Shown piece after piece: positions 7,624 to 21,257 of a DNA stretch of 33,776 nucleotides. The notes under the pieces were generated by a model that was not told where the DNA came from, searched no databases, and was given only the letters and a program-made list of their open reading frames with translations. Each line of letters starts with the position of its first letter. Position 1 is the stretch's first letter. The position numbers were made by a program, and so were the translations under genes. The stretch spans positions 1 through 33,776 of the forward strand of contig JAGCFB010000065.1 of assembly GCA_017650345.1 (NCBI GenBank), written 5' to 3'. The stretch comes from Kiritimatiellia bacterium. Lineage in GTDB: Bacteria; Verrucomicrobiota; Kiritimatiellia; RFP12; UBA1067.

Positions 7624-8334
7624 TCAGTGGCGCCCGTGCGGATGCCCGTGCGAGTCCCTTCCTCCGCCGTGGTGGCGGAAGAGGTGCTTGCGTCCCGAAA
7701 GGACGGGCACGCCGAGGTGGTACTTGATGGCGAGCGCGCGCACCACGAAGATGATGACCATGCAGACCGTCGAGCAGATGCGCCTGTCAACCTTCGCGAG
7801 GTCCAGCAGGAGGTAGAACACTCCGCCGGACGCGCACGCGAGCGCGTATATCTCCTTGCGGAAGATTAGCGGCACCTGGTTTATGCATATGTCGCGAAGG
7901 ACGCCGCCGAAGACCGCCGTGATGACGCCCATGGAGAGCGCGACCCACCACTGGTGGCTGTTCATGAGCGTCTTCTCGAGTCCGATGACCATGAAGAACG
8001 AAATCGATATCGTGTCGAAGATGAACCACGTCACCTGTCCGTCGATGAAGCGGCGTCCGAACATGTAAACCGCGACGACCGCCACGAGCGTGGTGATGAT
8101 GTAGCTCGGACCGCTCATCCAGAACGGATGGAGCCCAAGCATTATGTCGCGGAGCGTTCCGCCGCCGAGCGCCGTCACGCATCCGATCACGTACGCGCCG
8201 AACCAGTCGAAGCGCTTGACGCTTGCGAGGCGAACGCCGGAGATCGCGCCGGCGAACGTGCCGATCCATTCCAGGAGCGTGAAGAACGGGTCCTGCCTAA
8301 GGACCTCGCCCAGAGCCTCGTACCAGTCAGTCAT
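7624..8334 (-). CDS. TRIC-type cation channel family protein (UPF0126/YicG-like) with His-rich tail
   Basis: The 236-residue membrane protein has about seven hydrophobic segments and two copies of the family's glycine-rich signature: ALGGGTLRDIMLG in the first half and VFGGVLRDICIN in the second. This is the internal duplication expected of prokaryotic trimeric intracellular cation channel homologues. It should sit in the inner membrane and pass monovalent cations; the physiological role in bacteria is not settled. The last ~20 residues (RHHGGGRDSHGHPHGRH) are very rich in His and Gly and lie outside the family core, which suggests metal binding or simple-sequence expansion. The start overlaps lpxL by 8 bases. 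Confidence 0.85.
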   Translation of the reverse strand: MTDWYEALGEVLRQDPFFTLLEWIGTFAGAISGVRLASVKRFDWFGAYVIGCVTALGGGTLRDIMLGLHPFWMSGPSYIITTLVAVVAVYMFGRRFIDGQVTWFIFDTISISFFMVIGLEKTLMNSHQWWVALSMGVITAVFGGVLRDICINQVPLIFRKEIYALACASGGVFYLLLDLAKVDRRICSTVCMVIIFVVRALAIKYHLGVPVLSGRKHLFRHHGGGRDSHGHPHGRH

Positions 8335-9151
8335 TGCGCCACCTCCTGTGGAACCAGAGGTACTGCTCGGGATATGCCCTTATCGCAGCCTCCAGCCTGT
8401 CGTTCACGATCTGCGTCGCCGCGTCGCGGTCCGCGTCCTTGGCGAACCTGAGCGGATCCCCGCCGACGAGCTTGTAGCGGTACGGCGCGATGCGCACGAA
8501 CGTCCCGACGATCATCGGCGCGCCGCTGCGCATCGCAAGCCTCGTCGCGCTCGTGAAGGTGTAGGCGGTGCGTCCGAAGAACCGGAGCTTCGCGCCCTTC
8601 TTCGTGTGCTGATCGACGAGGATCGTCATCGCGGCCTTCGTGTCGCGCCACTGGCGCATCACGTCCGGCGTGAAGCCGTGGTTCTTGTCGATCACGGTGA
8701 TCTTCCCGCGGAAGTGGTGCTTCTTCATCCAGCCTGAGACGAGCTTCGAGTTCATCGTGCGCGCGATGGCGATCATCGGACGCGCGAACGACAGCAGGTT
8801 CGTCGCCGCCTCCCACACGCCGTGGTGCGCGCTCGCGACGATCACCGGCACGTCCGTCTCTTCGAGAAGGAGCCTGACCGCCTCGGGGCTCGCGCCCTCC
8901 ACGTCCAGGTGCTCGCGCCAGTTCTGCGCGTTGATGACGTTCGGGACGCAGAGCGCCTCCGCGATGTGCCCCGCGAGGTGGCGCCAGCTGGCCTTCGCCA
9001 TCCGGCGCGCCTCCTTGGGGTCGTCGGTCACGCCGCACTTGAGGATGTTCTCGGTCGCGAGCCTGCGGCGTCCCGGGAAGAACGGCCACAGGAGCGAGGC
9101 GAAGCCTGCTCCGAACCCGTATGCGTGGCGCTGTATGAAAGTAAGCTTCAT
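8327..9151 (-). CDS. lpxL: Lipid A biosynthesis acyltransferase, LpxL/HtrB family
   Basis: The 274-residue protein belongs to the lysophospholipid/lipid A acyltransferase family, which adds secondary acyl chains to lipid A from acyl-ACP at the inner membrane. The catalytic HX4E motif is visible as His109...Glu114 in ASAHHGVWEAA. Later blocks (VDQHTKKGAKLRFFGRTAYT, then the C-terminal YLWFHRRWR) are typical of LpxL. The second half of the family pattern, a run of Arg and Asp/Glu near MNSKLVSGWMKK, is also present. It overlaps hisD by 4 bases and the channel gene by 8. Which acyl chain it adds cannot be read from the sequence. Confidence 0.88.
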   Translation of the reverse strand: MKLTFIQRHAYGFGAGFASLLWPFFPGRRRLATENILKCGVTDDPKEARRMAKASWRHLAGHIAEALCVPNVINAQNWREHLDVEGASPEAVRLLLEETDVPVIVASAHHGVWEAATNLLSFARPMIAIARTMNSKLVSGWMKKHHFRGKITVIDKNHGFTPDVMRQWRDTKAAMTILVDQHTKKGAKLRFFGRTAYTFTSATRLAMRSGAPMIVGTFVRIAPYRYKLVGGDPLRFAKDADRDAATQIVNDRLEAAIRAYPEQYLWFHRRWRND

Positions 9152-11010: not shown

Positions 11011-11368
11011 ATGACGATCGCATACGCATGTGACATGAACTACGCCGCGTTGACGGCCATCAGCGCCGTGTCGGCTTCCCTTCAGCGAGGACGAGTATCT
11101 TGACGGACGGCGCAACGCCGCGATATACCACTTCTCAGGGCATACGCTGGGTCGTCCGTGGTTCACCAGCTCGCGGCACCCGCTGCGCAGCCGGTACTTG
11201 AAGGCCGCCCGCGCCGCAGGACTGGAGGACGCCGCCATGCAGACGCGTCCGATGGCGACGGACTACATGGCGCAGTATCTGCTGTGGCGGTTCCTGCCCC
11301 AGCCCCTTTTCGACACGGTCTGCCGCTGGATGTACCGCCTCCACATCCGCCGCTGCTACGGCGTCTGA
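11011..11368 (+). pseudogene. Family-8 glycosyltransferase remnant with a large internal deletion and frameshift
   Basis: The ATG at 11011 opens a frame reading MTIAYACDMNYAALTAISAVS, a typical GT8 N-terminus (nucleotide-sugar binding strand), which then meets a stop at 11101. A second frame from about 11069 reads RLPFSEDEYLDGRRNAAIY, then HFSGHTLGRPWF, and continues to a stop at 11366-11368 with YLKAARAAGL and FDTVCRWMYRLHIRRCYG. The H-x-x-G-x-x-x-P-W block is the GT8 C-terminal signature. Intact GT8 enzymes are ~300 residues; here about 25 N-terminal and 95 C-terminal residues survive, so roughly 170-180 codons that include the DxD motif are gone. Base composition is GC-rich like the surrounding chromosome, not like the following island. 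Confidence 0.72.
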
Positions 11369-11520
11369 CCTTTTATCATATATCGTCAGACCTTTTCTAG
11401 CAAAAGGTCTGATCTTTTTCAGTAAAAGGTCTGATCTTTTTGATCAAATCGTCAGACCTTTTCTAGTAAATCGTCAGACCTTTTACATCGTATCGTCAGA
11501 CCTTATCTCAGAACAGTCCA
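11367..11520 (+). repeat. Tandem array, seven units of exactly 22 bp
   Basis: Units start at 11367, 11389, 11411, 11433, 11455, 11477 and 11499, a constant 22-base step. Each starts GAYCTTTT (the last is GACCTTAT), then has eight variable bases, and ends either TCGTCA or AAGGTCT (the last unit ends differently). The variable parts are ATCATATA, CTAGCAAA, TCAGTAAA, TGATCAAA, CTAGTAAA and ACATCGTA in units 1 to 6. Two boundaries (2/3 and 3/4) read AAAAGGTCTGATCTTTT, a near palindrome that is partly the reverse complement of the others, so perfect 11-base inverted pairs arise (TCAGACCTTTT / AAAAGGTCTGA). The first unit overlaps the TGA of the GT8 remnant. A step of 22 is not a multiple of three, so this is not coding. 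One pair (11386-11412) is followed by TCTTTTT and could act as a terminator. Confidence 0.85.
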
Positions 11521-11691
11521 GACCACGACAACGAACGCCCTTACTGAACGCTCTGCATGGACAAAAGACAGTGTGCGTCATAGTCATTCATATCCATGCG
11601 AGAATCACGACGCCTTTTCGAACAGAGCGAGAATCCTCCACCCCTCACTCCATAATCGGCAGAGCGAACTCCTGCTGGATTTCGATTGCGG
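11521..11691. other. Gene-free stretch between the 22-bp array and the first island gene
   Basis: Together with the array this makes 362 bases without an intact gene (11369-11730). After the array only one further GACC (11521) keeps the 22-base register. I see no credible coding frame on either strand. The promoter of the GT2 gene occupies the last part. Confidence 0.5.
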
Positions 11692-11721
11692 TTGATTTGT
11701 CTCATGTGGATTTGATAGAAT
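11692..11721 (+). promoter_or_regulatory. Promoter of the GT2 gene, near-leaderless
   Basis: TTGATT at 11692-11697, an 18-base spacer and TGATAGAAT at 11713-11721 form a -35/extended -10 pair. Only 9 bases (TGTCGGCAA) separate the -10 from the ATG at 11731, so transcription should begin at or within a few bases of the start codon. No Shine-Dalgarno sequence is present. Confidence 0.6.
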
Positions 11722-11730
11722 TGTCGGCAA

Positions 11731-12660
11731 ATGACACAGACCAAACCAGACATATCCGTTGTCATCCCGACATTCAACCGCGCAATGATGGCATGTGACT
11801 GCATCGACAGCGTACTGTCGCAGACAGGCGCGACATTCGAAGTCATAGTCGTTGACGACTGCTCCAAGGATGACACGGGAGAACGAATCAGGACGAAGTA
11901 CGGCAACGACAAACGCGTGAAGTACATCCGCAACGACAAGAACTCTCTCGCGGCTAGGTCCCGCAACAACGGAGCAAGGGTATCGTGCGGAAGATACATA
12001 TTTTTTCTCGACGACGACAATATCCTTGAGCCAAATGCCTTGTCCGAACTCCTTGAATGCTTTAAAAGGCATCCTGACGCCGGGCTTGTCGCACCATTGG
12101 CCATTCAGAAGCGAACTGTCGGGGCTGAACTGATTTGGACTTTAGGTAGCGATTTCAACAGATGGACGTCGCAGCCCAAGGACAGACTCCCCAACCTGCC
12201 GCTATGCCAGCTGCCGCCTGAACCTGTGGATTGGCCTACTACATACAGTCCCAACGCATACATGGTTTCACGAGAGGCGTACGACGCTGCTGACGGATTC
12301 GACAATCGTTTTGGCATAATGTTCGACGAATCCGATTTTGGCTGGAGAGTAGTCAGTACAGGACGCTCGGCATGGATCACATCACGGGCCAGAACTAAGC
12401 ACCTTGGTTATGTCGAGCCTGGTTGCGCAACCAAACTTCGTCTGCTGGGCATTGAAAAGCCATATCGAACCTATTCCTTTGGCCGCAACAGGCTTCGCTT
12501 CGCAAGGCGACACTTCAACATTGCGCAGATTCTTTCCGTAACTCTCGTTTTTGCGCCACTTTCCGCTGTATACTACGGATTTGTCGCCCTCAAGAACCGA
12601 CGTCCCGACATCGCCTGGGCATATGTCAAAGGCACACTCGCCGGTATCTTCGGACTTTAA
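11731..12660 (+). CDS. Family-2 glycosyltransferase
   Basis: The 309-residue protein has a GT-A fold transferase domain: ISVVIPTFNRAMMACDCIDS (~8-27), FEVIVVDDCSKDDT (~36-49) and YIFFLDDDNILEPNAL (~88-103), in which the DDD supplies the metal and nucleotide-sugar ligands. FDESDFGWRVVSTGR (~197-211) matches the usual ED/ESD acceptor-side motif of rhamnosyltransferase-like members. A hydrophobic stretch near the C-terminus (ILSVTLVFAPLSAVYYGFVA) may anchor it to the membrane. It is the first gene of the lower-GC polysaccharide island, with the flippase gene next on the same strand. Donor and acceptor sugars are not predictable. Confidence 0.88.
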   Translation: MTQTKPDISVVIPTFNRAMMACDCIDSVLSQTGATFEVIVVDDCSKDDTGERIRTKYGNDKRVKYIRNDKNSLAARSRNNGARVSCGRYIFFLDDDNILEPNALSELLECFKRHPDAGLVAPLAIQKRTVGAELIWTLGSDFNRWTSQPKDRLPNLPLCQLPPEPVDWPTTYSPNAYMVSREAYDAADGFDNRFGIMFDESDFGWRVVSTGRSAWITSRARTKHLGYVEPGCATKLRLLGIEKPYRTYSFGRNRLRFARRHFNIAQILSVTLVFAPLSAVYYGFVALKNRRPDIAWAYVKGTLAGIFGL

Positions 12661-12807
12661 CGCTTACCCAATCTGTCAGCAACTGGGGATATTCCAGTGC
12701 TCGGCAAGCTCGGCAAGCCGCCGTGGTTCGTGGTTCGCGCCGGTAGGCGCCACGATTCCCCGCCCAGCCAATCAAAGCTTTGCCCATAAGCCGCAAACAC
12801 GTATATT

Positions 12808-12816
12808 TGATATAAT
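12808..12816 (+). promoter_or_regulatory. Extended -10 promoter of the flippase gene, leaderless geometry
   Basis: TGATATAAT, a perfect TGn plus TATAAT, ends only 6 bases (ACCAGC) before the ATG at 12823. With normal spacing the transcript would start on or next to the A of the ATG. The upstream gap 12661-12807 has no gene; it contains GC-rich short repeats such as CTCGGCAAG, twice in a row. Confidence 0.62.
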
Positions 12817-12822
12817 ACCAGC

Positions 12823-14157
12823 ATGCGGCAACTTCTCGACAAACTCCACGCGCGGCTCGGCGACTTCTGGTGGTACTCGCTGATGCTCTTCTGCGCTTGC
12901 CGCGCAGCGGACTTGCTCAACGCGTTCGTCGGCCTGTGGCTCGTGCCGAAGTACGTCGACCCTTCCGAGCTCGGCGCGGTTATGCCTCTTACCCAATTCG
13001 CCAACTTCCTCGCAATTCCCGTCGCCGCATTTGCCAACACCTTCCGCAATGAGCTGACCCGTCTTTCCATAAACAAGGAATTCGGCAAACTCAAAACCCT
13101 GGTGCGCGGCGTATTTGCCGCGACTGCAGTTTTTCTCTTCGTCGCTATCGTCGTCGCGCGATTCCTTCTCCCCGCCTTCCTTGAGCGTATCAGAATTGTC
13201 GAAGGCTCGCTCGGCCTCGTCATCATCGCGGCCTCGTTCGTCAGCGCCGTCGCGCCAATCTACTCCAACGCGCTCCAGGCGCTCAAGAAGTTCAAGGCGC
13301 AATCGATCCTCAGCGTCGTCGGCGCACCTGTGCGCCTCATAGCGATGCTTATCGCAATGCCCTTCCGCGCCATCACCGGCTACTTCGTCGGCCAAGCCGC
13401 GACGCCCACGTTCTCCATCGCCGCCTCGGTCGTCGCCCTGCGCAGGGAACTCGCGGTCAAGGCGGAGCCATATTGGAGCAAAGAAATTTCAGGAAGATTT
13501 GCAAAGATTTTTATTTTCTTCCTCTGTTGGGGACTTTCCGGCGGTTTCTGCTTACTCATTGAATCCACAGTGCTTAGGCAACGACTACCAGACATCGATT
13601 CTGCGGGTTACTACATGGCGACGCGATTCTCAGAAATCGCGAACTTCTTGGCCGCAACACTTACATTTACAATATTCCCATTTGCGGCAGAGATTGCAGC
13701 CAAAGACGGAGACACGCGTCCACTTGTGATTAGAACTACGATGGCTGTATTTATTTTTAGCGCAATCATTGTTGTCCCCTTTGTATTTTGGGGAAGGGAC
13801 ATACTAAACCTTCTTCCGCACGGCGAGTGCTACTCCGATTATTGGTGGGCTATACCATGGGCAATAGGGATTGGAACTTTAGGCTCTTTCAATTCACTAT
13901 ACACAACTGCCGAGATATCTGCCGACAGATTTCAGTTCTTAAAATGGATGATTCCAGTAGAGATTCTTTATCCAGTTCTCCTTCTCCTTGTAACAGGACA
14001 TGGATATTTCATCAATATTCTCCCTGTGGAATGCACAAATTTTCTGACAACCCACAACATCAACAAGCTTGAAACAATGCTTTGCTGGATGACAGTAGTT
14101 GCCGTTGCGAAAAGCAGCATATGCCTAATGTCAATGTCGCTCCGCAGAAGTCACTAA
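12823..14157 (+). CDS. Polysaccharide flippase (Wzx/MATE-like oligosaccharide exporter)
   Basis: The 444-residue protein is hydrophobic throughout, with roughly 12 predicted membrane segments, for example around 20-40, 120-140, 150-165, 225-245, 300-325 and 370-390. This is the layout of lipid-linked oligosaccharide flippases of the MOP superfamily. No short motif proves the family; size, topology and the neighbouring transferases support it. It would move undecaprenyl-linked sugar units across the inner membrane. The first ~210 codons are GC-rich with many C/G third positions, while from about base 13,470 the codons turn AT-rich. The gene therefore looks like a recombinant of two sources. 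It converges on the next gene with 8 bases between stops. Confidence 0.75.
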   Translation: MRQLLDKLHARLGDFWWYSLMLFCACRAADLLNAFVGLWLVPKYVDPSELGAVMPLTQFANFLAIPVAAFANTFRNELTRLSINKEFGKLKTLVRGVFAATAVFLFVAIVVARFLLPAFLERIRIVEGSLGLVIIAASFVSAVAPIYSNALQALKKFKAQSILSVVGAPVRLIAMLIAMPFRAITGYFVGQAATPTFSIAASVVALRRELAVKAEPYWSKEISGRFAKIFIFFLCWGLSGGFCLLIESTVLRQRLPDIDSAGYYMATRFSEIANFLAATLTFTIFPFAAEIAAKDGDTRPLVIRTTMAVFIFSAIIVVPFVFWGRDILNLLPHGECYSDYWWAIPWAIGIGTLGSFNSLYTTAEISADRFQFLKWMIPVEILYPVLLLLVTGHGYFINILPVECTNFLTTHNINKLETMLCWMTVVAVAKSSICLMSMSLRRSH

Positions 14158-14165
14158 TTACTATA

Positions 14166-15134
14166 TCAATGGTTAAATATTGCCTTTGTCTGCCTTATAA
14201 AACGCTGATGATCTTCTCGAATAAACGCACGATAGTCCTCAAAATCCAGCTGCCGTGAATCGTAATGCTCAAGGCAGTCAGAAATCAAATCAACAATCTT
14301 CGGTATCTCGCTCTGGACATCTTTAAACTTATAGCAATCGTCGATTGGCATGTCCTCATGAAAAGCCGCAGCCCCCCGTCTTGATGTTATCACGATACAC
14401 CCTGCCATGACTGCCTCTCTAGGAAATCTATCTTTGCCTGGATGATTGCCGAAATCAATGTAAACTTTGGCACGTCTGCACCAATCATGCACTTCAACCG
14501 GCGACATACTCTGCAACGCTATAAACCTAAAAGATTTAGGCGAAGCCTTTATAATGCGCCTTGTGAATGTAAGTCCCTTTGCAGGATTATACAATATAAC
14601 ATCCTCTCTGTGAGCACTCATATCGATTGGCTCAAGGTGCTCCTTGCCAAGATAATCCATAAGGAAATGTGCATTCGTTGCCCCCATTCGCCTGACAAAG
14701 ACCATAGCGTATTGCGACTGACACATATGAACTATCGATGCGTCTTTGAAATTGACATTCCTTTTAAATAGCCTGTCCCTTAGCAAGTTAATCATGTCTC
14801 GTGGACCGCACACCTTTAGCGGCCTAGTATAATTATCTACAGATAACCACCAAATGTATTTTGTCATCAAAGGGAATCTGGGAATAAAGTCTGTACAAGT
14901 CTCTGGTATTACCAATTTTGCATTCGCAGAATCTTCAACAGTCAAAACATATGGCACATTGAACCTCTTAAACCGTTCATGCACGACTGCACCAAAATCT
15001 TTTACATTAATATAGAGCATAAAAGCACTAATATCTAACTTCAACAGTTCGTAACATAGTGCATGCGCAGCCTCAGTACCTCCCGTAGCAACATGAGCAG
15101 GACATACAACATAAACTGGACAACTTTTATTCAT
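14166..15134 (-). CDS. GT-B type glycosyltransferase-like protein
   Basis: The 322-residue protein starts with a Rossmann-like opening (CPVYVVCPAHVATGGTEAAH), the loop often seen at the acceptor side of GT-B enzymes. It ends with a donor-side pattern, VYIDFGNHPGKDRFPREAVM, then AGCIVITSRRGAAAFHEDMP. The REAVMAGC...G pattern resembles the E-x7-E region of GT4-like enzymes without matching it exactly. I chose the ATG at 15134 because it shares an A with the TAA of the upstream gene (TAATG). An upstream ATG at 15149 would add MGSCL and overlap that gene by 16 bases. It is the last gene of a three-gene - strand set. Confidence 0.65.
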   Translation of the reverse strand: MNKSCPVYVVCPAHVATGGTEAAHALCYELLKLDISAFMLYINVKDFGAVVHERFKRFNVPYVLTVEDSANAKLVIPETCTDFIPRFPLMTKYIWWLSVDNYTRPLKVCGPRDMINLLRDRLFKRNVNFKDASIVHMCQSQYAMVFVRRMGATNAHFLMDYLGKEHLEPIDMSAHREDVILYNPAKGLTFTRRIIKASPKSFRFIALQSMSPVEVHDWCRRAKVYIDFGNHPGKDRFPREAVMAGCIVITSRRGAAAFHEDMPIDDCYKFKDVQSEIPKIVDLISDCLEHYDSRQLDFEDYRAFIREDHQRFIRQTKAIFNH

Positions 15135-15922
15135 TAAACACGATCCCATTTTGTAAAATATTTCAAGAATCCCACAGCATGAAAGCCAAGCGGCGCCTCT
15201 GCTGGCAAAAAAGCGTCATTGAGTTCAACCGAGAAGTTGGACGCCTCTTCAAGTGTCGGCCACTTTATGTCTTTCACAGCATTGCGAAACCAGAAGCGTA
15301 GAGTCTTGCAATAGAAGGTATCGTCTCCGAGGATATACCACCAGTAGGGCACATGTCTGAACCATTTCTTGTAGACCTTAGAAGCTGCTTCGCACAGTCT
15401 TTTCGAACGAAGCGAAAATCCACCGTTCCCAACGCAGTATTTATAGGGATAAACATCATAATATGTCGAATGATGCACCCAAGGCGCACCAATATAATCC
15501 CATTTTCCAACAAACTCCTCAAGACCTGGACGCATCGGGAAGCCATCATCCTGTACAATGAGGGCGTAGTCGGTCGCAAATCGTGCATGGAGATTTTCCA
15601 CCATATCCAACGCCAATGTCTTGATTCTCCCAGGGATAAGCTTCTCGGCTATCTTCACCTCGATGTGAAATCTGGCGCAAAAGGACATCAGGGCATCCGT
15701 TTTCAGATTTGTCACAAGCACTGACGGCATTATCCCTTGAGTCTGAAATGTCTTCAGAAACGCAAATTCCGTCCGCCAAAAGCAGGAGTCATATTCTTTT
15801 TCACTCTGAAAATAATATGCGATGACAGTGACATTGCGTATCTTAGAGTCAACAAATGACTCTTTGCGCAAAGATTCAATGTTCCGTCTCTGCCATTCGA
15901 TGAGTTCAACAGGACAAGCCAT
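15134..15922 (-). CDS. DUF5672 family protein, putative glycosyltransferase
   Basis: The 262-residue protein has the DUF5672 core: ALIVQDDGFPMRPGLEEFVG, WDYIGAPW, VGNGGFSLRSKRLCEAA, GDDTFYCK and, near the end, PLGFHAVG. The QDDG motif looks like a DxD metal site of a GT-A fold, and DUF5672 genes are regularly found in glycan clusters, so transferase activity is likely but not shown. It follows the previous gene with no gap (TAG directly before ATG; AGGAGG 8 bases upstream inside that gene). A paralogue lies at 18065-18799. Confidence 0.8.
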   Translation of the reverse strand: MACPVELIEWQRRNIESLRKESFVDSKIRNVTVIAYYFQSEKEYDSCFWRTEFAFLKTFQTQGIMPSVLVTNLKTDALMSFCARFHIEVKIAEKLIPGRIKTLALDMVENLHARFATDYALIVQDDGFPMRPGLEEFVGKWDYIGAPWVHHSTYYDVYPYKYCVGNGGFSLRSKRLCEAASKVYKKWFRHVPYWWYILGDDTFYCKTLRFWFRNAVKDIKWPTLEEASNFSVELNDAFLPAEAPLGFHAVGFLKYFTKWDRV

Positions 15923-16813
15923 CTACCCCTCCTGCCGTAGCAATGTCTGCACCGGCGACAGATCGCTCCTGTGAAGATGCTCTGCCAAAGTCCAGCCGAG
16001 CGGCGCGAGGCAGATTCCTCTCTTCCAGGCTACACCTACAGAACCTTTCTCCCATCCATCATACAAGCGCAGGCATTTCTCAAACCTTCGCATTTCGCGA
16101 ACTGGCATAAAGAATGTGCAACACGTACTTGGAACGCGGCAATACAATTTGCCGTCTACAGTAGCAAGTTTGCCAACATCCTGGAATCGAACGCGATCTG
16201 GATGGAAATGGGGATTCATCCCAATTACATTGGAATGTTTTCGCATCACATTGAAGCATGTCACAAAGGCCATTTCATCAAGAAGATAATCATCCTCAAG
16301 AATAAGAGCAAGCGTGCTGTCAGTGTCCTGCAACGCGATATCAATCTGTGTCTGGAATGATGGGCCATTGCCATGCCCTTTCGCATTAACAACACCAAAG
16401 CTCATGCCAACGGCATCGGCAGCCGCACGGTATTGCCGCATACCAACATCCGAAAGGCGGTCAACCACAAAAGTAATGCGAATATTCTCCTTCCCATACA
16501 CCTCGGCGAATTTCGCAGCCGCAGGGAAAAGTGAGCACCCTCCAACCTTTATAACATCATTTCTTGTACGGATACCGACATCTTCAAGGTCACGAGTCGC
16601 ATTAAGGTTCATAACAAAATCAGTAGTCCTGAGAACAATATGAAGGCGAGTTAAGTCTGAACTGCCACCAAGATCCAGGCATTTTCGCCGCTTGAATCTC
16701 CTATAAAAAACAGGGAAGTGGTCCCTAACTACATTGATGTTTTGAAAGAAATACCAAAGGTGACGCGGATTGCTCCTCGCCTTTAACATTGCATCCTTTA
16801 ATTGCGAAATCAT
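15923..16813 (-). CDS. Putative GT-A type glycosyltransferase
   Basis: The 296-residue protein has an acidic ALILEDDYLLDEMAF motif (~168-182) followed by IGMNPHFHPDR and a FEKC...LYDGWEKG region, which suggests a GT-A fold enzyme with an EDD metal site. The first ~60 residues (basic, FYRRFKRRKCLDLGG) are not assigned to a family. It starts from a leaderless-type promoter inside a 38-base gap shared with the divergent GT4 gene and leads the - strand set 15923, 15134, 14166. The family was not recognised with certainty; a DUF5672-like or LPS-type transferase are alternatives. Confidence 0.55.
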   Translation of the reverse strand: MISQLKDAMLKARSNPRHLWYFFQNINVVRDHFPVFYRRFKRRKCLDLGGSSDLTRLHIVLRTTDFVMNLNATRDLEDVGIRTRNDVIKVGGCSLFPAAAKFAEVYGKENIRITFVVDRLSDVGMRQYRAAADAVGMSFGVVNAKGHGNGPSFQTQIDIALQDTDSTLALILEDDYLLDEMAFVTCFNVMRKHSNVIGMNPHFHPDRVRFQDVGKLATVDGKLYCRVPSTCCTFFMPVREMRRFEKCLRLYDGWEKGSVGVAWKRGICLAPLGWTLAEHLHRSDLSPVQTLLRQEG

Positions 16814-16820
16814 CCCCTAT

Positions 16821-16829
16821 AGTATACCA
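16821..16829 (-). promoter_or_regulatory. Divergent extended -10 promoter, leftward
   Basis: On the - strand it reads TGGTATACT and ends 7 bases (ATAGGGG) before the ATG at 16813. Its TATACT is the left arm of an inverted repeat shared with the rightward promoter: ATAGTATA at 16819-16826 and TATACTAT at 16838-16845. Confidence 0.6.
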
Positions 16830-16834
16830 TAATT

Positions 16835-16843
16835 TGATATACT
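16835..16843 (+). promoter_or_regulatory. Divergent extended -10 promoter, rightward
   Basis: It reads TGATATACT and ends 8 bases before the ATG at 16852. Both promoters fit in the 38 bases between the two start codons. The -35 region of each would fall on the start of the opposite gene, so the two polymerases should compete. Confidence 0.6.
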
Positions 16844-16851
16844 ATCTGCAT

Positions 16852-18111
16852 ATGACTTTTACTGACACAATAAACAGTTTGAAAGTATGGGGAATTAAAG
16901 GTGCGATCAACTTCGCGCGCCGGTGGCCTGTGTTACGTAGACTTAAGAATTCAGACAAACATGTCTGGAGGTCCCCTCAACGTGGGATAACCCTCATTGG
17001 GCCATTCTCGGCTCACAATGGCAATTCTCACACGATGAGGAACTTAGCGCAAATGCTGAGAAACGCAAACATTCCCTTTCAGACATTTGATACAAATTAT
17101 CCACCATCACTACCACCCGGCGACTACAAGCACCTAATCACACCCTTCAAAGAGTTTGACCTTGGGCACTATAGTCATGTCATAGAACTGTTCACCCAGC
17201 ATTCCCCCGTGTCGTCCAATCGTGTCCATGCGCTGCTTGCGTTCTGGGAATATGAATCTGGATTTGATTTCGCATTCCCAAGCGCAGCAACTTCAGGTCT
17301 CCCGATTGTCGCCATGTCAGATTTCAACGCAAAACATTTTCGCACTATACTGCCTAAAGACACCCCCGTATTCAAAATCAGACATCCTCTGATTCTAAAT
17401 CCTTCCGAAGCGACTTCTCCCGATGTGCTTAGAGCAAGATACTGTATCTCCCCAACTACTTTTATAGTCTTTTTCAACTTTGACTATGGGTCTTCGTACT
17501 ATAGAAAGAATCCAGAGGCTGTGGTCAAAGCGTTTGCAAAGGCATTCACCCACTCCGACAATGCTGTGCTTTTGTTAAAGACTTCCAATGCCAAAAGGCA
17601 TCGCGAAACTGAAATGCGCCTTCGTTCTGTTATTAGCACCTCCTCACTTGGTCAAGACCGCATAATCATTATTGATGACGCTCTATCCCAGAGTGACATG
17701 TCCGGACTGTTCCATGCCTGTGATGTTTACATCTCATTGCATCGTGGCGAAGGGTTTGGCATCGGCATGGCAGAGGCTATGGCCTGCGGGAAACCAGTAA
17801 TTGCAACAAACTACAGTGCCAACACAGAGTTTTGCACGGATGAGACTTCAATCCCAGTTCCTTACAAAATGACCAGCCCATCAAAAGCAGAGATTGACAA
17901 TCCCGCATATAGCCATGTTACATCTTGGGCGGAACCTGACATAGATTTTGCTGCTTCAGCACTCGTAAAATGCTACAAAGATCGCAACTTCGCAAAACAG
18001 ATTGGATCAACCGGCGCAGCGTTTATTAAAAAAAGTTTTTCGTTAGAAAACTTCAAACAAGATATCAATGCGTTTCTTGACGAGTCACCAATCGCCGCTG
18101 CAATGCAATAG
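16852..18111 (+). CDS. Family-4 glycosyltransferase
   Basis: The 419-residue protein has the GT-B donor-binding signature of GT4: YISLHRGEGFGIGMAEAMAC followed by GKPVIATNYSANTEF, with the E-x7-E pair in EGFGIGMAE. Ahead of it FNFDYGSSYYRKNPEAVVKA, then LLLKTSNAK, matches the usual start of the C-terminal domain. I chose the ATG at 16852 (MTFTDTINSL) because the promoter lies directly before it. An in-frame ATG at 16789 would read through that promoter and through the divergent gene's start. The last 47 bases overlap, tail to tail, with the 3' end of the - strand DUF5672 gene. Confidence 0.87.
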   Translation: MTFTDTINSLKVWGIKGAINFARRWPVLRRLKNSDKHVWRSPQRGITLIGPFSAHNGNSHTMRNLAQMLRNANIPFQTFDTNYPPSLPPGDYKHLITPFKEFDLGHYSHVIELFTQHSPVSSNRVHALLAFWEYESGFDFAFPSAATSGLPIVAMSDFNAKHFRTILPKDTPVFKIRHPLILNPSEATSPDVLRARYCISPTTFIVFFNFDYGSSYYRKNPEAVVKAFAKAFTHSDNAVLLLKTSNAKRHRETEMRLRSVISTSSLGQDRIIIIDDALSQSDMSGLFHACDVYISLHRGEGFGIGMAEAMACGKPVIATNYSANTEFCTDETSIPVPYKMTSPSKAEIDNPAYSHVTSWAEPDIDFAASALVKCYKDRNFAKQIGSTGAAFIKKSFSLENFKQDINAFLDESPIAAAMQ

Positions 18112-18799
18112 TCGAATGACCGTGAATTCCGAATGGCTCAATGCCCTTCGGCTTCGATATCAGGCCTTTAAGCGAATCAAAGGCAAATGTAAAAGCGTCT
18201 TTTTCGCCAGCGAACTTTAGCCCGTGACGATAGCTCCATCCCAGGCATGCGGTCATGGTGTAGAACGTGTCTTCGAAAAAGAATCTGGACTTGGGGTTCA
18301 AAAAGAAACGCCACCATCTGTTCCATGCGTTTGCCGCGCGAATGCAAATGCGCCTCGAACGTAGCGAGAAGCCTCCGTTAAGGCACGGGAAGCCGAGCAA
18401 GTTCATCAAGCGGCGACGACCGTTACGCACCGACGGCGCGCCGATGAAATCCCATTTGCCCACAAACTGCTCAAGGCCCGGGCGAACTGGATAGCCGTCA
18501 TCTTGGATAATCAGAACATACGGCGTGGAGAACCTAGTATAAAGGCGCTTAATGCAGTCCATCGACATAGTAGTGATGCTGCCATAAACGAGCGAAGGCT
18601 CAATCTGAATCTCTACATTGGAATGCTGCGATGCGAAGTTGTCTACGTCTGCGAAGTGATGGCTTGCCACAATTACTGTCTTTAGCTTCCCGACATTTTC
18701 CCAGGTTCTCTCGATAGAAGAGACAATTTTACTAAATGCACGACTTTCGTAGCCCCTTTCAGGGAACGTGTAAATCAGTATTGTCACTTTATCTGTCAT
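18065..18799 (-). CDS. DUF5672 family protein, second copy
   Basis: The 244-residue protein repeats the core of the gene at 15134-15922: VLIIQDDGYPVRPGLEQFVG, WDFIGAPS, CLNGGFSLRSRRICIRAA, FFEDTFYT and PFGIHGHS. The two differ strongly outside these blocks, so this is an old duplication or two separate imports. I chose the ATG at 18799 (MTDKVTILIY); a TTG two codons upstream is in frame but unlikely. The -10 box (TGATAAAAT) ends 21 bases upstream. Glycosyltransferase activity is inferred from the QDDG motif and the context. Confidence 0.8.
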   Translation of the reverse strand: MTDKVTILIYTFPERGYESRAFSKIVSSIERTWENVGKLKTVIVASHHFADVDNFASQHSNVEIQIEPSLVYGSITTMSMDCIKRLYTRFSTPYVLIIQDDGYPVRPGLEQFVGKWDFIGAPSVRNGRRRLMNLLGFPCLNGGFSLRSRRICIRAANAWNRWWRFFLNPKSRFFFEDTFYTMTACLGWSYRHGLKFAGEKDAFTFAFDSLKGLISKPKGIEPFGIHGHSTIALQRRLVTRQETH

Positions 18800-18820
18800 C
18801 AGCAAACCTAATTGCGTGAA

Positions 18821-18829
18821 ATTTTATCA
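18821..18829 (-). promoter_or_regulatory. Extended -10 promoter of the second DUF5672 gene
   Basis: On the - strand this is TGATAAAAT, with TTTGATAAAAT overall. The -10 ends 21 bases before the ATG at 18799. No strong ribosome site is visible in the short leader. Confidence 0.5.
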
Positions 18830-18864
18830 AATTCAGAACTGCAAGGTCAACCACGCAAAGTGCC

Positions 18865-18930
18865 AATTCCGTTTTTCAGGGAGATGAATTCCGCTTTCTC
18901 GGCCTGTGAATTCCGGTTTTTCTGGAGTCG
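18865..18930 (+). repeat. Short tandem array, three units of exactly 22 bp
   Basis: AATTCCG starts at 18865, 18887 and 18909, an exact 22-base step. Each unit continues with a T-rich run (GTTTTTC, then CTTTCTC and GTTTTTC) and a variable tail (AGGGAGATG, GGCCTGTG, TGGAGTCG). A weak fourth unit, ATGTCCG, begins at 18931 in register and merges into the REP-like hairpin. The period equals that of the unrelated-sequence array at 11367-11520. Confidence 0.7.
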
Positions 18931-18979
18931 ATGTCCGAACACAGTTCGGACATCAAATCTGGAATGGACATCAAGTCTG
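18930..18979 (+). repeat. REP-like hairpin plus an 18-bp direct repeat downstream of the RAYT gene
   Basis: GATGTCCGAAC (18930-18940) and GTTCGGACATC (18944-18954) form a perfect 11-base stem with the 3-base loop ACA. From 18944 two 18-base units follow: GTTCGGACATCAAATCTG and GAATGGACATCAAGTCTG. The first differs in a single base from GTTCGGCCATCAAATCTG inside the transposase gene (19778-19795, opposite strand). The element ends 16 bases from the RAYT stop codon, the place expected for a REP of a REP-RAYT pair. Confidence 0.75.
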
Positions 18980-18995
18980 AGGCGGGAGACGCATC

Positions 18996-20168
18996 TCATG
19001 CGTCGCTTCTTGCAATAACCTGCGGGCCGTTGACCTTCCAGTAGAGCGCGAGGCCCTCGCCAGCCGTGGCAATCTCGACAATCTCGGCGTTGAGATCGAG
19101 GCAGGCGCGGCGGCCAAACTCGGTCTCGTCGCTGCCACGCGCGATCTCAAGGTAGCGATCCTCAGCAAACGGCTCGACATAACGACTCTCCGGCCTGAAG
19201 CGCCTGTTGGGAATACACGACGGCAAAATACGGATGAAACGTGCGTCTCCCCGTCGACACAGCATGTCACGCACCGCTTGCTCTCCCTTCGAAATAAAGC
19301 CGCTTATGATCACATAGCCCTTCTCGACCGCGCTCTCCATGCGCCTCACGACCCGGGCGATAGCCTCGGGCGTTGCGACTTCGCGAGAAACCCGAAGCGA
19401 GACAAGCTTTTCATCGGTAGAGAGAAGCGCAATGTTGCCAACCCCCTTCCAATAGTCGCCAATGTCGAGCCGCGGCGAGGAAAGCGGCTCCACTACGCGC
19501 AGGGCGCCGCCCTCGCAATACATAAGCTCCCATTTCATCGGGTTGTAGGCGATGTAGCGCTCGGTCGAGTCGATCATCGAGCGAGAGAGAAGAATGTAGT
19601 CGTGGTAGCCTTGCTGCCAGATGGTGGTTGGTTGGCCAAACGCAGTTTGGCCATCAAAGCTTGTTTTGCCGTCGAATATAGTTTGGCCATCAAAGCTTGT
19701 TTGGGCAACAAAGCTAGTTTGGCCGTCGAATATATCGCGACCATCAAGCCTATTGCTGTCGCGCGACCCAGCTGCCACAGATTTGATGGCCGAACTGCGT
19801 TCGGCCAATCCCAAACTACGCTTGGCCAGAGCTGTGGTATAGTTCTTGAATCGCCTTATCGCCCCGCCAAGCACTTTAAGCGGCTCATCAAGCCCAGGCG
19901 CGAGCGCGCAGTTAAAATGAATGTGATCGGGCATAACGACCCAGCCGAAGAGCCTAAACCCAGGGTTTAGCCGAGGTATCGCTTGCAGCGCCTCGGCAAC
20001 TTTCTCCCCAAACGGGGCAAGAGCCACACTGCCGCCCTGTATCGAGCCGAAAAGCGGCCGTCTCGGCGCTGTCGCCATCGTAATGAAGAGCGAAGCGCCT
20101 TTCGCGTAGTTCCAGCCCGTGAATCGCCGGTATCGCCTTATCTCGCGGCTCTCTGCCCTGACTGCCAT
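18996..20168 (-). CDS. REP-associated tyrosine transposase (Y1/HUH family), long form with repeat insertion and extra C-terminal domain
   Basis: The 390-residue protein begins with a Y1 transposase domain: RRYRRFTGWNYAKGASLFIT, then FGWVVMPDHIHFN with the HUH pair His82-His84. After an insertion come IWQQGYHDYILLSRSMIDST and ERYIAYNPMKWEL. By alignment to E. coli TnpA-REP the nucleophile is probably Tyr205 in RYIAYNP. Such enzymes cut and join single-stranded DNA at REP hairpins. Residues ~118-182 are an insertion made largely of six-residue repeats (S/I-F-D-G-Q/K-T) encoded by REP-like DNA. Residues ~240-390 form an extra domain (NIALLSTDEKLVSLRVSREV, GYVIISGFISKGEQAVRDML, FGRRACLDLNAEIVEIA) with a Rossmann-like look, possibly related to DprA/SLOG proteins; this is a weak assignment. 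Usual RAYTs are 150-230 residues. It starts 1 base after the HipA-like stop. Confidence 0.83.
   Translation of the reverse strand: MAVRAESREIRRYRRFTGWNYAKGASLFITMATAPRRPLFGSIQGGSVALAPFGEKVAEALQAIPRLNPGFRLFGWVVMPDHIHFNCALAPGLDEPLKVLGGAIRRFKNYTTALAKRSLGLAERSSAIKSVAAGSRDSNRLDGRDIFDGQTSFVAQTSFDGQTIFDGKTSFDGQTAFGQPTTIWQQGYHDYILLSRSMIDSTERYIAYNPMKWELMYCEGGALRVVEPLSSPRLDIGDYWKGVGNIALLSTDEKLVSLRVSREVATPEAIARVVRRMESAVEKGYVIISGFISKGEQAVRDMLCRRGDARFIRILPSCIPNRRFRPESRYVEPFAEDRYLEIARGSDETEFGRRACLDLNAEIVEIATAGEGLALYWKVNGPQVIARSDA
19633..19807 (-). repeat. REP-like repeat cluster inside the transposase gene (18-bp units and two hairpins)
   Basis: On the + strand 18-base units start at 19645, 19663, 19681, 19699, 19717 and 19735 without a gap. 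Those at 19645 and 19681 are identical (GTTTGGCCATCAAAGCTT); the others differ at several positions, and the one at 19735 is the most diverged. Just before the run, TGGCCAAAC (19633-19641), GCA and GTTTGGCCA form a hairpin with a 9-base stem. At 19787-19807 TGGCCGAAC, TGC and GTTCGGCCA form a second one, and the 18-base unit there lies in the opposite orientation (19778-19795). Because 18 is a multiple of three the run stays in frame and encodes six-residue repeats. Confidence 0.82.
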
Positions 20169-20169
20169 A

Positions 20170-21048
20170 TCACCTCACAACTCCTCCAAACAGAGCCTCG
20201 TACCTTGCCGCGAGATATGTCTTGTAGAACTGGCGCTGGAGGGCGGTCATGAGCGGCGTGCCGTCGATGAAGGCGTTGATCGCCGCGAGATCGATGCGCG
20301 GGACTATGCGCGCGAGCGATGGGGCGAGAACGCCGTCGCGGTTCTGCGCAATGAAATCGACATAGCCGATCTTCTTTCCGTTCTGCTTGAGCGCCGAAGC
20401 GGGGAAGCTGTATATGCGCGCGTCGAGCTCCGCCTTGTCGTCTATGACGCGGCGCATAATGTCGTCGTCCGCTTGCGGCAGGAGACAGCTGCCGAAGTCG
20501 TACGCGGGGGCGATCTCCGCCTTGCGCGTCACTGGATCGACGAGGAATCCCCAGTTGCCGTTATGCCGGTCGAAGTTGCCGAGGAACGCATCTACGACAA
20601 ACATGTCCCAGAAATGCGCCTTTAGCTCGACCGGATCGACGAAGGACTGAAGCTCTATCGTCTCAAGCACGTCGTCAAGCTCTGTTCCCGTCCCGTTCGT
20701 CTCGGAGTCTATAACCGTGTTCTTGATGGAGCAGAAATCGTAGAGCTGCCCGCCGTCCGCCGTAAAGTCGCGGCACGCGCAAACCGTCTTCGTCTTGCCG
20801 TTCGTGAACGTGCCAAGTCGCGTTTCATGAGACTTGAGCCCGATCATGTTGGCGATGGTGCTGGCAACATGCTCGCAGAAGCAGCTGTTGGTGTAGGAAA
20901 GCGCCGTTGGCTTGTCCGCCGCTGACGGGGGGAACTTGACGAGCCATACCGCGCCGTCGTAGCGGACGGCTATCTTCTTTCCGTTCGCGCCGTTGTAGGC
21001 CCGGCCAGGAAGCCGCTCGCATGCGGAGAAATCGACAGGCTCGGTCAT
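20170..21048 (-). CDS. HipA-like serine/threonine kinase, probable toxin
   Basis: The 292-residue protein has the HipA C-terminal kinase features: VVDAFLGNFDRHNGNWGFLV (~151-170), with catalytic Asp160 and the following HNGN, and IAPAYDFGS (~179-187), with the metal-binding Asp184. The N-terminal part (IAVRYDGAVWLVKFPP) resembles the nucleotide-binding start of the CtkA/HipA kinases. The protein is shorter than HipA (~440 residues) and lacks its N-terminal subdomain, like the one-domain CtkA group. I chose the ATG at 21048 because it overlaps the 70-residue partner gene by 4 bases (ATGA); upstream in-frame sequence is a shadow of that gene. Its target is unknown. The transposase gene follows after 1 base, so the three genes are probably cotranscribed. 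Confidence 0.82.
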   Translation of the reverse strand: MTEPVDFSACERLPGRAYNGANGKKIAVRYDGAVWLVKFPPSAADKPTALSYTNSCFCEHVASTIANMIGLKSHETRLGTFTNGKTKTVCACRDFTADGGQLYDFCSIKNTVIDSETNGTGTELDDVLETIELQSFVDPVELKAHFWDMFVVDAFLGNFDRHNGNWGFLVDPVTRKAEIAPAYDFGSCLLPQADDDIMRRVIDDKAELDARIYSFPASALKQNGKKIGYVDFIAQNRDGVLAPSLARIVPRIDLAAINAFIDGTPLMTALQRQFYKTYLAARYEALFGGVVR

Positions 21049-21257
21049 GCGTCCTTCCCCCAGAGATACTTGTCGCGGAGATACTGCGCCTGGTCGTGGG
21101 TGATGGCGTTGTCGTTTATCTCGGCGATGTTGATCGAGCCGTAGAGCTCGCCCCAAAGGCAGTCGAGAAGATTCGACTTCTCCTCGACGCCCTTCTTCCA
21201 TGCCTCGAGGTCATGCGCCAGATACGGCGGCAGGTTTCGCTCGTACATCTCGTTCAT
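21045..21257 (-). CDS. Small partner protein of the HipA-like kinase, possible antitoxin
   Basis: The 70-residue acidic, mostly helical protein reads MNEMYERNLPPYLAHDLEAW at its start, then NLLDCLWGELYGSINIAEIN and ITHDQAQYLRDKYLW. It has no helix-turn-helix of the HipB type. Small proteins with LDCLW/LDC-type cores and an ITxEQAxYLRxKYL ending are known to me as neighbours of single-domain HipA-like kinases in gut bacteria. Function as an antitoxin is inferred only from size, order and the 4-base overlap with the kinase gene. Confidence 0.65.
   Translation of the reverse strand: MNEMYERNLPPYLAHDLEAWKKGVEEKSNLLDCLWGELYGSINIAEINDNAITHDQAQYLRDKYLWGKDA

Follow-up and report, generated by a model that had tools for sequence, protein, structure and literature searches.

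A dispersed family of 22-bp intergenic repeat arrays with a conserved GTCWGAC word in Verrucomicrobiota and Bacteroidaceae genomes

We analyzed a stretch of 33,776 nucleotides from a Kiritimatiellia bacterium (contig JAGCFB010000065.1; hereafter the window), in which an array of seven 22-bp units, all in register, follows the remnant of a GT8 gene and stands at the start of a low-GC glycan island that extends to a HipA-like gene (Table 1). The stop codon of the GT8 remnant, TGA (11366-11368), lies inside array unit 1, and this unit (GTC TGA CC) provides both the last codon and the stop. GT8 homologues of about 305-354 amino acids are intact in seven congeners; those that were read end at the same residue and have no array after it, and the homologue tested, from the relative at locus L266, matched Glyco_transf_8 with E=1.9e-36. 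The initial annotation, made from the sequence of the window, had described a decayed GT8 gene overlapping the array, and the comparison of the 94-residue remnant with the intact homologues bears this out. It had also placed the array at the left edge of a low-GC glycan island; the GC content indeed drops at the array from 0.63-0.68 to 0.42-0.54, and the low-GC region begins there.

In the relative, the GT8 and HipA-like genes are convergent and 99 bp apart (L266:1774-1872), without the 8.8-kb island that separates them in the window. This arrangement suggests that the array and the island were inserted between the GT8 and HipA genes, as judged from one relative and with both genomes being drafts, and it fits the earlier proposal of an insertion site. 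At the opposite end of the island, a DUF5672 gene is accompanied by GAATTCCGNTTT, repeated over three 22-bp steps (window 18864-18931) and present nowhere else in the genome. In addition, an in-frame 18-bp array (AGTTTGGCCATCAAAGCT; window 19644-19747) adds FDGQTS-type repeats to the protein of a divergent IS200/RAYT-like gene (18996-20168) that has a weak Y1_Tnp match.

Table 1. Positions of the window array, of its surroundings and of further arrays named in the text.
Feature	Position	Strand	Remarks
Truncated GT8 pseudogene	11084..11368	+	C-terminal 94 residues of a ~305-aa protein
Array, seven units	11363..11516	+	GTCWGAY-[CTTTT/W-rich]-N5-[AAATC/AAAAG]
Best hairpin	11385..11413	+	two neighbouring junctions, 12-bp stem, 5-nt loop, then CTTTTT; weak terminator-like
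Decayed eighth unit, in register	11517..11538	+	TCCAGACC...; sequence read directly
Low-GC glycan island, 8.8 kb	11369..20169	.	from GT8 stop to HipA-like gene; only 99 bp in L266
HipA-like gene, right border	20170..21201	-	83% identical DNA to the L266 copy beside intact GT8
Array on contig C23, six units	C23:1829-1960		between 3' end of ComEC-like gene and leucine-rich-repeat gene (names by eye)
Array on contig C95, six units, mixed orientation	C95:9390-9521		among Rhs-like remnants (names by eye)
GTCTGGGCAAGACTTNGGCAAA arrays of UBA4286	L140:11822-11973; L141:98-226; L143:8582-8734; L144:4885-5056; L148:2577-2794		

The self-match of the window array at a lag of 22 reaches 81 of 110 positions at best, against 50 for the highest of 2000 composition-matched Markov simulations, in accordance with the exact seven-unit array first reported. 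The make-up of the unit proved to be different from that first description, in which eight variable bases were enclosed by the constant parts GAYCTTTT and TCGTCA. The invariant part is instead GTC-W-GAY, and unit positions 9-12 and 18-21 are A/T almost throughout, which leaves only about five (13-17) nearly unconstrained. Near-palindromic boundaries do exist as described; however, they are not limited to two, since all junctions of the array are near palindromes of the form AAATC-GTC-W-GAC-CTTTT, the left half of which has two forms, AAATC-GTC and AAAAG-GTC.

A unique array with identical cores had been named in the initial annotation as the mark of a plain slippage repeat. Pattern searches in the host genome and its relatives identified other arrays, so the window array does not stand alone, and the cores vary. 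The host genome (1.44 Mb in 103 contigs, 65% complete) contains two further arrays, on contigs C23 and C95. Just upstream of the C95 array, an Rhs-like core sequence of 766 bp is duplicated at 82% (L034:5520-6285 and 8137-8902), and after this array there is another Rhs-like C-terminal tail. Among 60 sampled congeners, one genome (UBA4286, Verrucomicrobia bacterium) has arrays, six in number; altogether, arrays in the 61 genomes of the genus are found in the host and UBA4286, with isolated single sites elsewhere. A three-unit pattern is absent from 386 other sampled Verrucomicrobiota genomes. A scan of 84,980 species genomes added RUG10619 (about six arrays) and SRR873601_bin.122, both Verrucomicrobia, as well as two Bacteroidaceae MAGs (about 16 and 25 loci, mostly shorter arrays of one or two steps) and Bacteroides sp. 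224 (five loci), all genome-wide counts being those of pattern searches. An unbiased search for 22-bp arrays gave none in 233 kb of the host genome and in random samples amounting to 167 kb from three congeners. The gene neighbours of the arrays share neither gene type nor orientation. The window array belongs to a non-coding repeat family that is dispersed between genes in a small number of gut-type genomes of Verrucomicrobiota and Bacteroidaceae.

Of 89 steps between units in 18 arrays from seven genomes, 86 measure 22 bases and three measure 21; the fixed step originally noted for the window thus holds over many arrays. Intact arrays of Verrucomicrobiota mostly consist of 6-7 units. An extension of the 22-bp register into the flanks was considered and rejected for the Verrucomicrobiota, in which flank rows of the GTC word are no better than off-register rows; register beyond the array was seen in Bacteroidaceae only, in the first one or two rows.

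Within a genome, arrays with unrelated flanks lack unit-by-unit homology, and those with shared flanks are plain copies. Common flanks of about 100-200 bp, on one or both sides, were identified in UBA4286 (contigs C87/C220/C67 and C149/C228), in bin.122 (L078/L090) and in RUG10619 (L084/L085/L087); some of these pairs could represent assembly redundancy of MAGs, and several contigs end at arrays. We infer the mobility of the window copy from these other genomes because its own flanks are not repeated at the other arrays of the host genome. Separately, a segment of about 500 bp that takes in an array and the final 36 codons of holA is repeated at 98% (L074:4088-4582 and L071:3945-4440), with the copy on the other contig lying downstream of a YggS-like gene; a segmental copy and MAG redundancy look the same in this case. 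An empty-site comparison at the holA-rpsJ locus found that the gene order is not conserved in relatives. In addition to the copying of whole elements, the cores of adjacent units are more similar than those of non-adjacent units (0.647 versus 0.565, permutation p below 1/2000), and therefore units also multiply through local duplication. The array is in this respect not unlike a minisatellite grown by slippage, from which it had been set apart in the first description.

As part of the analysis of unit conservation, we compared 75 internal units, in which GTC and GAC are nearly invariant and positions 13-17 have an information content of 0.04-0.5 bits. Between the copies of duplicated elements, the six fixed bases of each word changed in 1 of 114 cases, as against 15 of 240 for linkers and 74 of 991 for flanks (Fisher p=0.026 versus linkers and p=0.005 versus all others); the test is a small one with a single contributing change, and the search pattern for arrays contained the word, which brings some bias. 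The GTCWGAC word is kept while the bases between the words change.

Other repeats with the same step were observed in several of these genomes. UBA4286 has a second abundant 22-bp family, the unit of which, GTCTGGGCAAGACTTNGGCAAA, is composed of two 11-bp halves and is unrelated in sequence to the GTC arrays. It is found on about 25-30 contigs of UBA4286 and as one array in G019, with no match in the other 57 congeners searched. This family has runs of identical units, and its repeat directly adjoins the GTC array in the C87/C220/C67 element. Other 22-bp repeats adjoin GTC arrays at loci L095 and L086; the one at L095:4809-4880 is a palindromic 22-bp array (TTGTAAGTGCSACTTACAAAG) directly next to a GTCWGAY array. 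At many intergenic loci of the Bacteroidaceae MAGs (L217-L235), GTCWGAC units flank an A/T-rich core with 21-bp palindromic repeats (CAAAASTTTTG / TTTATATAAA), and the word decays outward over one or two units.

BrickBuilt, a MITE of Porphyromonas gingivalis, is a dispersed intergenic element made of minisatellite units of about 22-23 nt without spacers; its leader and tail are conserved, a genome holds about 19 copies, long stem-loops are predicted, the terminal inverted repeats are common to IS elements, and the unit number differs by whole units between strains (PMC4596501). The present arrays are alike in having 22-nt units placed head to tail with no spacer. A shared leader or tail was seen in UBA4286, bin.122 and RUG10619, but not in the three arrays of the host genome, and the pairs listed for five elements (for L069, the five longest of ten) include no terminal inverted repeat that connects the left flank with the right. 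Unlike BrickBuilt, the present family has a different sequence, occurs in two phyla, and combines a fixed GTCWGAC with strongly variable linkers. The open-access papers searched do not describe a GTCWGAC 22-bp family. The arrays appear to be BrickBuilt-like in build, yet distinct in sequence and in their fixed word.

With this precedent, the arrays could be selfish or neutral minisatellites within a miniature mobile element, growing by slippage, copied by a transposase and read by no protein, in which case the word would look conserved as the arrays are young or gene-converted. We regard this explanation as possible but somewhat unlikely. The greater similarity of adjacent units and the runs of identical units in the GTCTGGGCAAGACTTNGGCAAA family of UBA4286 speak for it, as does BrickBuilt itself, whereas linkers that are nearly randomised beside fixed GTC and GAC in the very same arrays speak against it, together with a step and a unit number that are nearly constant across species.

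A second explanation is a REP-like hairpin in RNA or single-stranded DNA, which would act as a transcription end, in the protection of mRNA ends, or as the substrate of a hairpin-recognising transposase. CGTC-tagged REPs, including dRS3 of Neisseria, are short palindromic extragenic repeats with short loops; their distribution is patchy across phyla, including Bacteroidetes, they are clustered in some genomes, and no dedicated transposase is known for them (PMC3733652). They mostly occur separately or in head-to-head pairs, and are defined by an unpaired CGTC/TGTC tag, a stem of 8-9 bp, a loop of 4-5 nt and a CCA tail (PMC3733652). The unit CGTC-AGACCTTTT-CTAGC-AAAAGGTCT resembles them in its 9-bp stems and 5-nt loops, and unit 2 of the window fits the tag, stem and loop; most other arrays have GGTC and lack a CCA tail. 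Unlike these REPs, the units join directly, head to tail, at a fixed 22-bp step and share their palindromes. The two single strands of the array are more stably folded than shuffled sequences (z about -5.5 and -5.2), one hairpin is followed by a T-run, and both in the window and at comEC an array adjoins the 3' end of a gene. However, across 67 linkers the within-unit hairpin pairs (8:22, 9:21, 10:20, 11:19 and 12:18) show no more pairing than shuffled partners do (p=0.98), the array at L069 is located between divergent genes, and Rfam gave no family in the window region or at 14 loci. Nor do the counts of IS200/RAYT transposases track the arrays, in contrast to what GTAG REPs with a RAYT would show: PF01797 has one match each in the host genome and UBA4286 and up to ten in array-free congeners, and this transposase was rejected as the driver. 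We therefore consider a functional hairpin distinctly unlikely. The strong two-way terminator suggested in the initial annotation likewise found no support, with one weak terminator-like site against 0.6 expected and no covariation of the hairpin pairs.

Since pairing within units is not in excess, hairpins do not account for the palindrome. The half-site pairs of the junctions beyond GTCWGAC show no covariation either, and therefore dyad behaviour is confined to the 7-bp core. The conserved object looks like a 7-bp palindrome in duplex DNA at a fixed step, with the folding of single strands as a by-product.

The gamma origin of plasmid R6K has seven tandem direct 22-bp iterons with their sites on one DNA face. 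A captured iteron-type replication origin or a plasmid or phage partition site would match the seven direct units of two helical turns each and the A/T-rich linkers, but it is highly improbable given the many copies per genome at unrelated chromosomal loci, the palindromic junctions, the absence of blastn matches in 72,556 plasmid and 50,697 phage records and of a replication initiator in the scanned set of nine intact genes from the island and its borders, and the nature of 21 viral contigs that carry the word every 22 bp, which are plain 11- or 22-bp tandem repeats and in many cases are spanned by open frames. The arrays also differ from CRISPR arrays, which combine identical repeats of 21-48 bp with unique spacers of similar length and cas genes, in their constant word of 7 bp and their A/T-rich, similar linkers, and no Cas domain was found in the scanned genes.

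The explanation that we favour, with about even confidence, is a BrickBuilt-like dispersed repeat in which the array is a multi-site platform for a putative DNA-binding protein. Its working part would be about seven palindromic GTCWGAC words, occurring once every two helical turns (22 bp), with intervening A/T-rich linkers whose sequence would be of little importance. A sequence-specific, probably dimeric protein may read the words cooperatively on one face of the DNA, and this reading would keep the word under selection. The element is copied within a genome as a whole, the array together with some flank (about 100-200 bp), and local tandem duplication also adds units to the array. Such a platform could serve transposition, gene silencing or chromosome organisation. 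The multi-site protein binding proposed earlier agrees with conserved words at a fixed 22-bp step on one DNA face; we infer the binder itself, and its action on duplex DNA. Against the platform stands the fact that no reader protein was found or linked to the arrays. In a stronger form, which we offer tentatively and think unlikely, the arrays would be a chromosomal iteron-like platform of gut Verrucomicrobiota and Bacteroidaceae, with about seven GTCWGAC words at two-turn spacing and a putative dimeric reader, and the 22-bp lattice itself would be selected, because the same genomes carry sequence-unrelated arrays at the same step.

In the window, the array sits at the border of a glycan island that is horizontally variable. 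The usual explanation for palindromic repeats between genes is that they form hairpins or are junk, but in this family conservation does not fall on the hairpin. What appears to be conserved is a 7-bp duplex palindrome repeated at exactly two helical turns in genomes from two phyla, and one genome has a second, unrelated family with the same step. The family thus presents a case in which array length, step and word are constrained separately, and this makes a direct test of a lattice binder possible.
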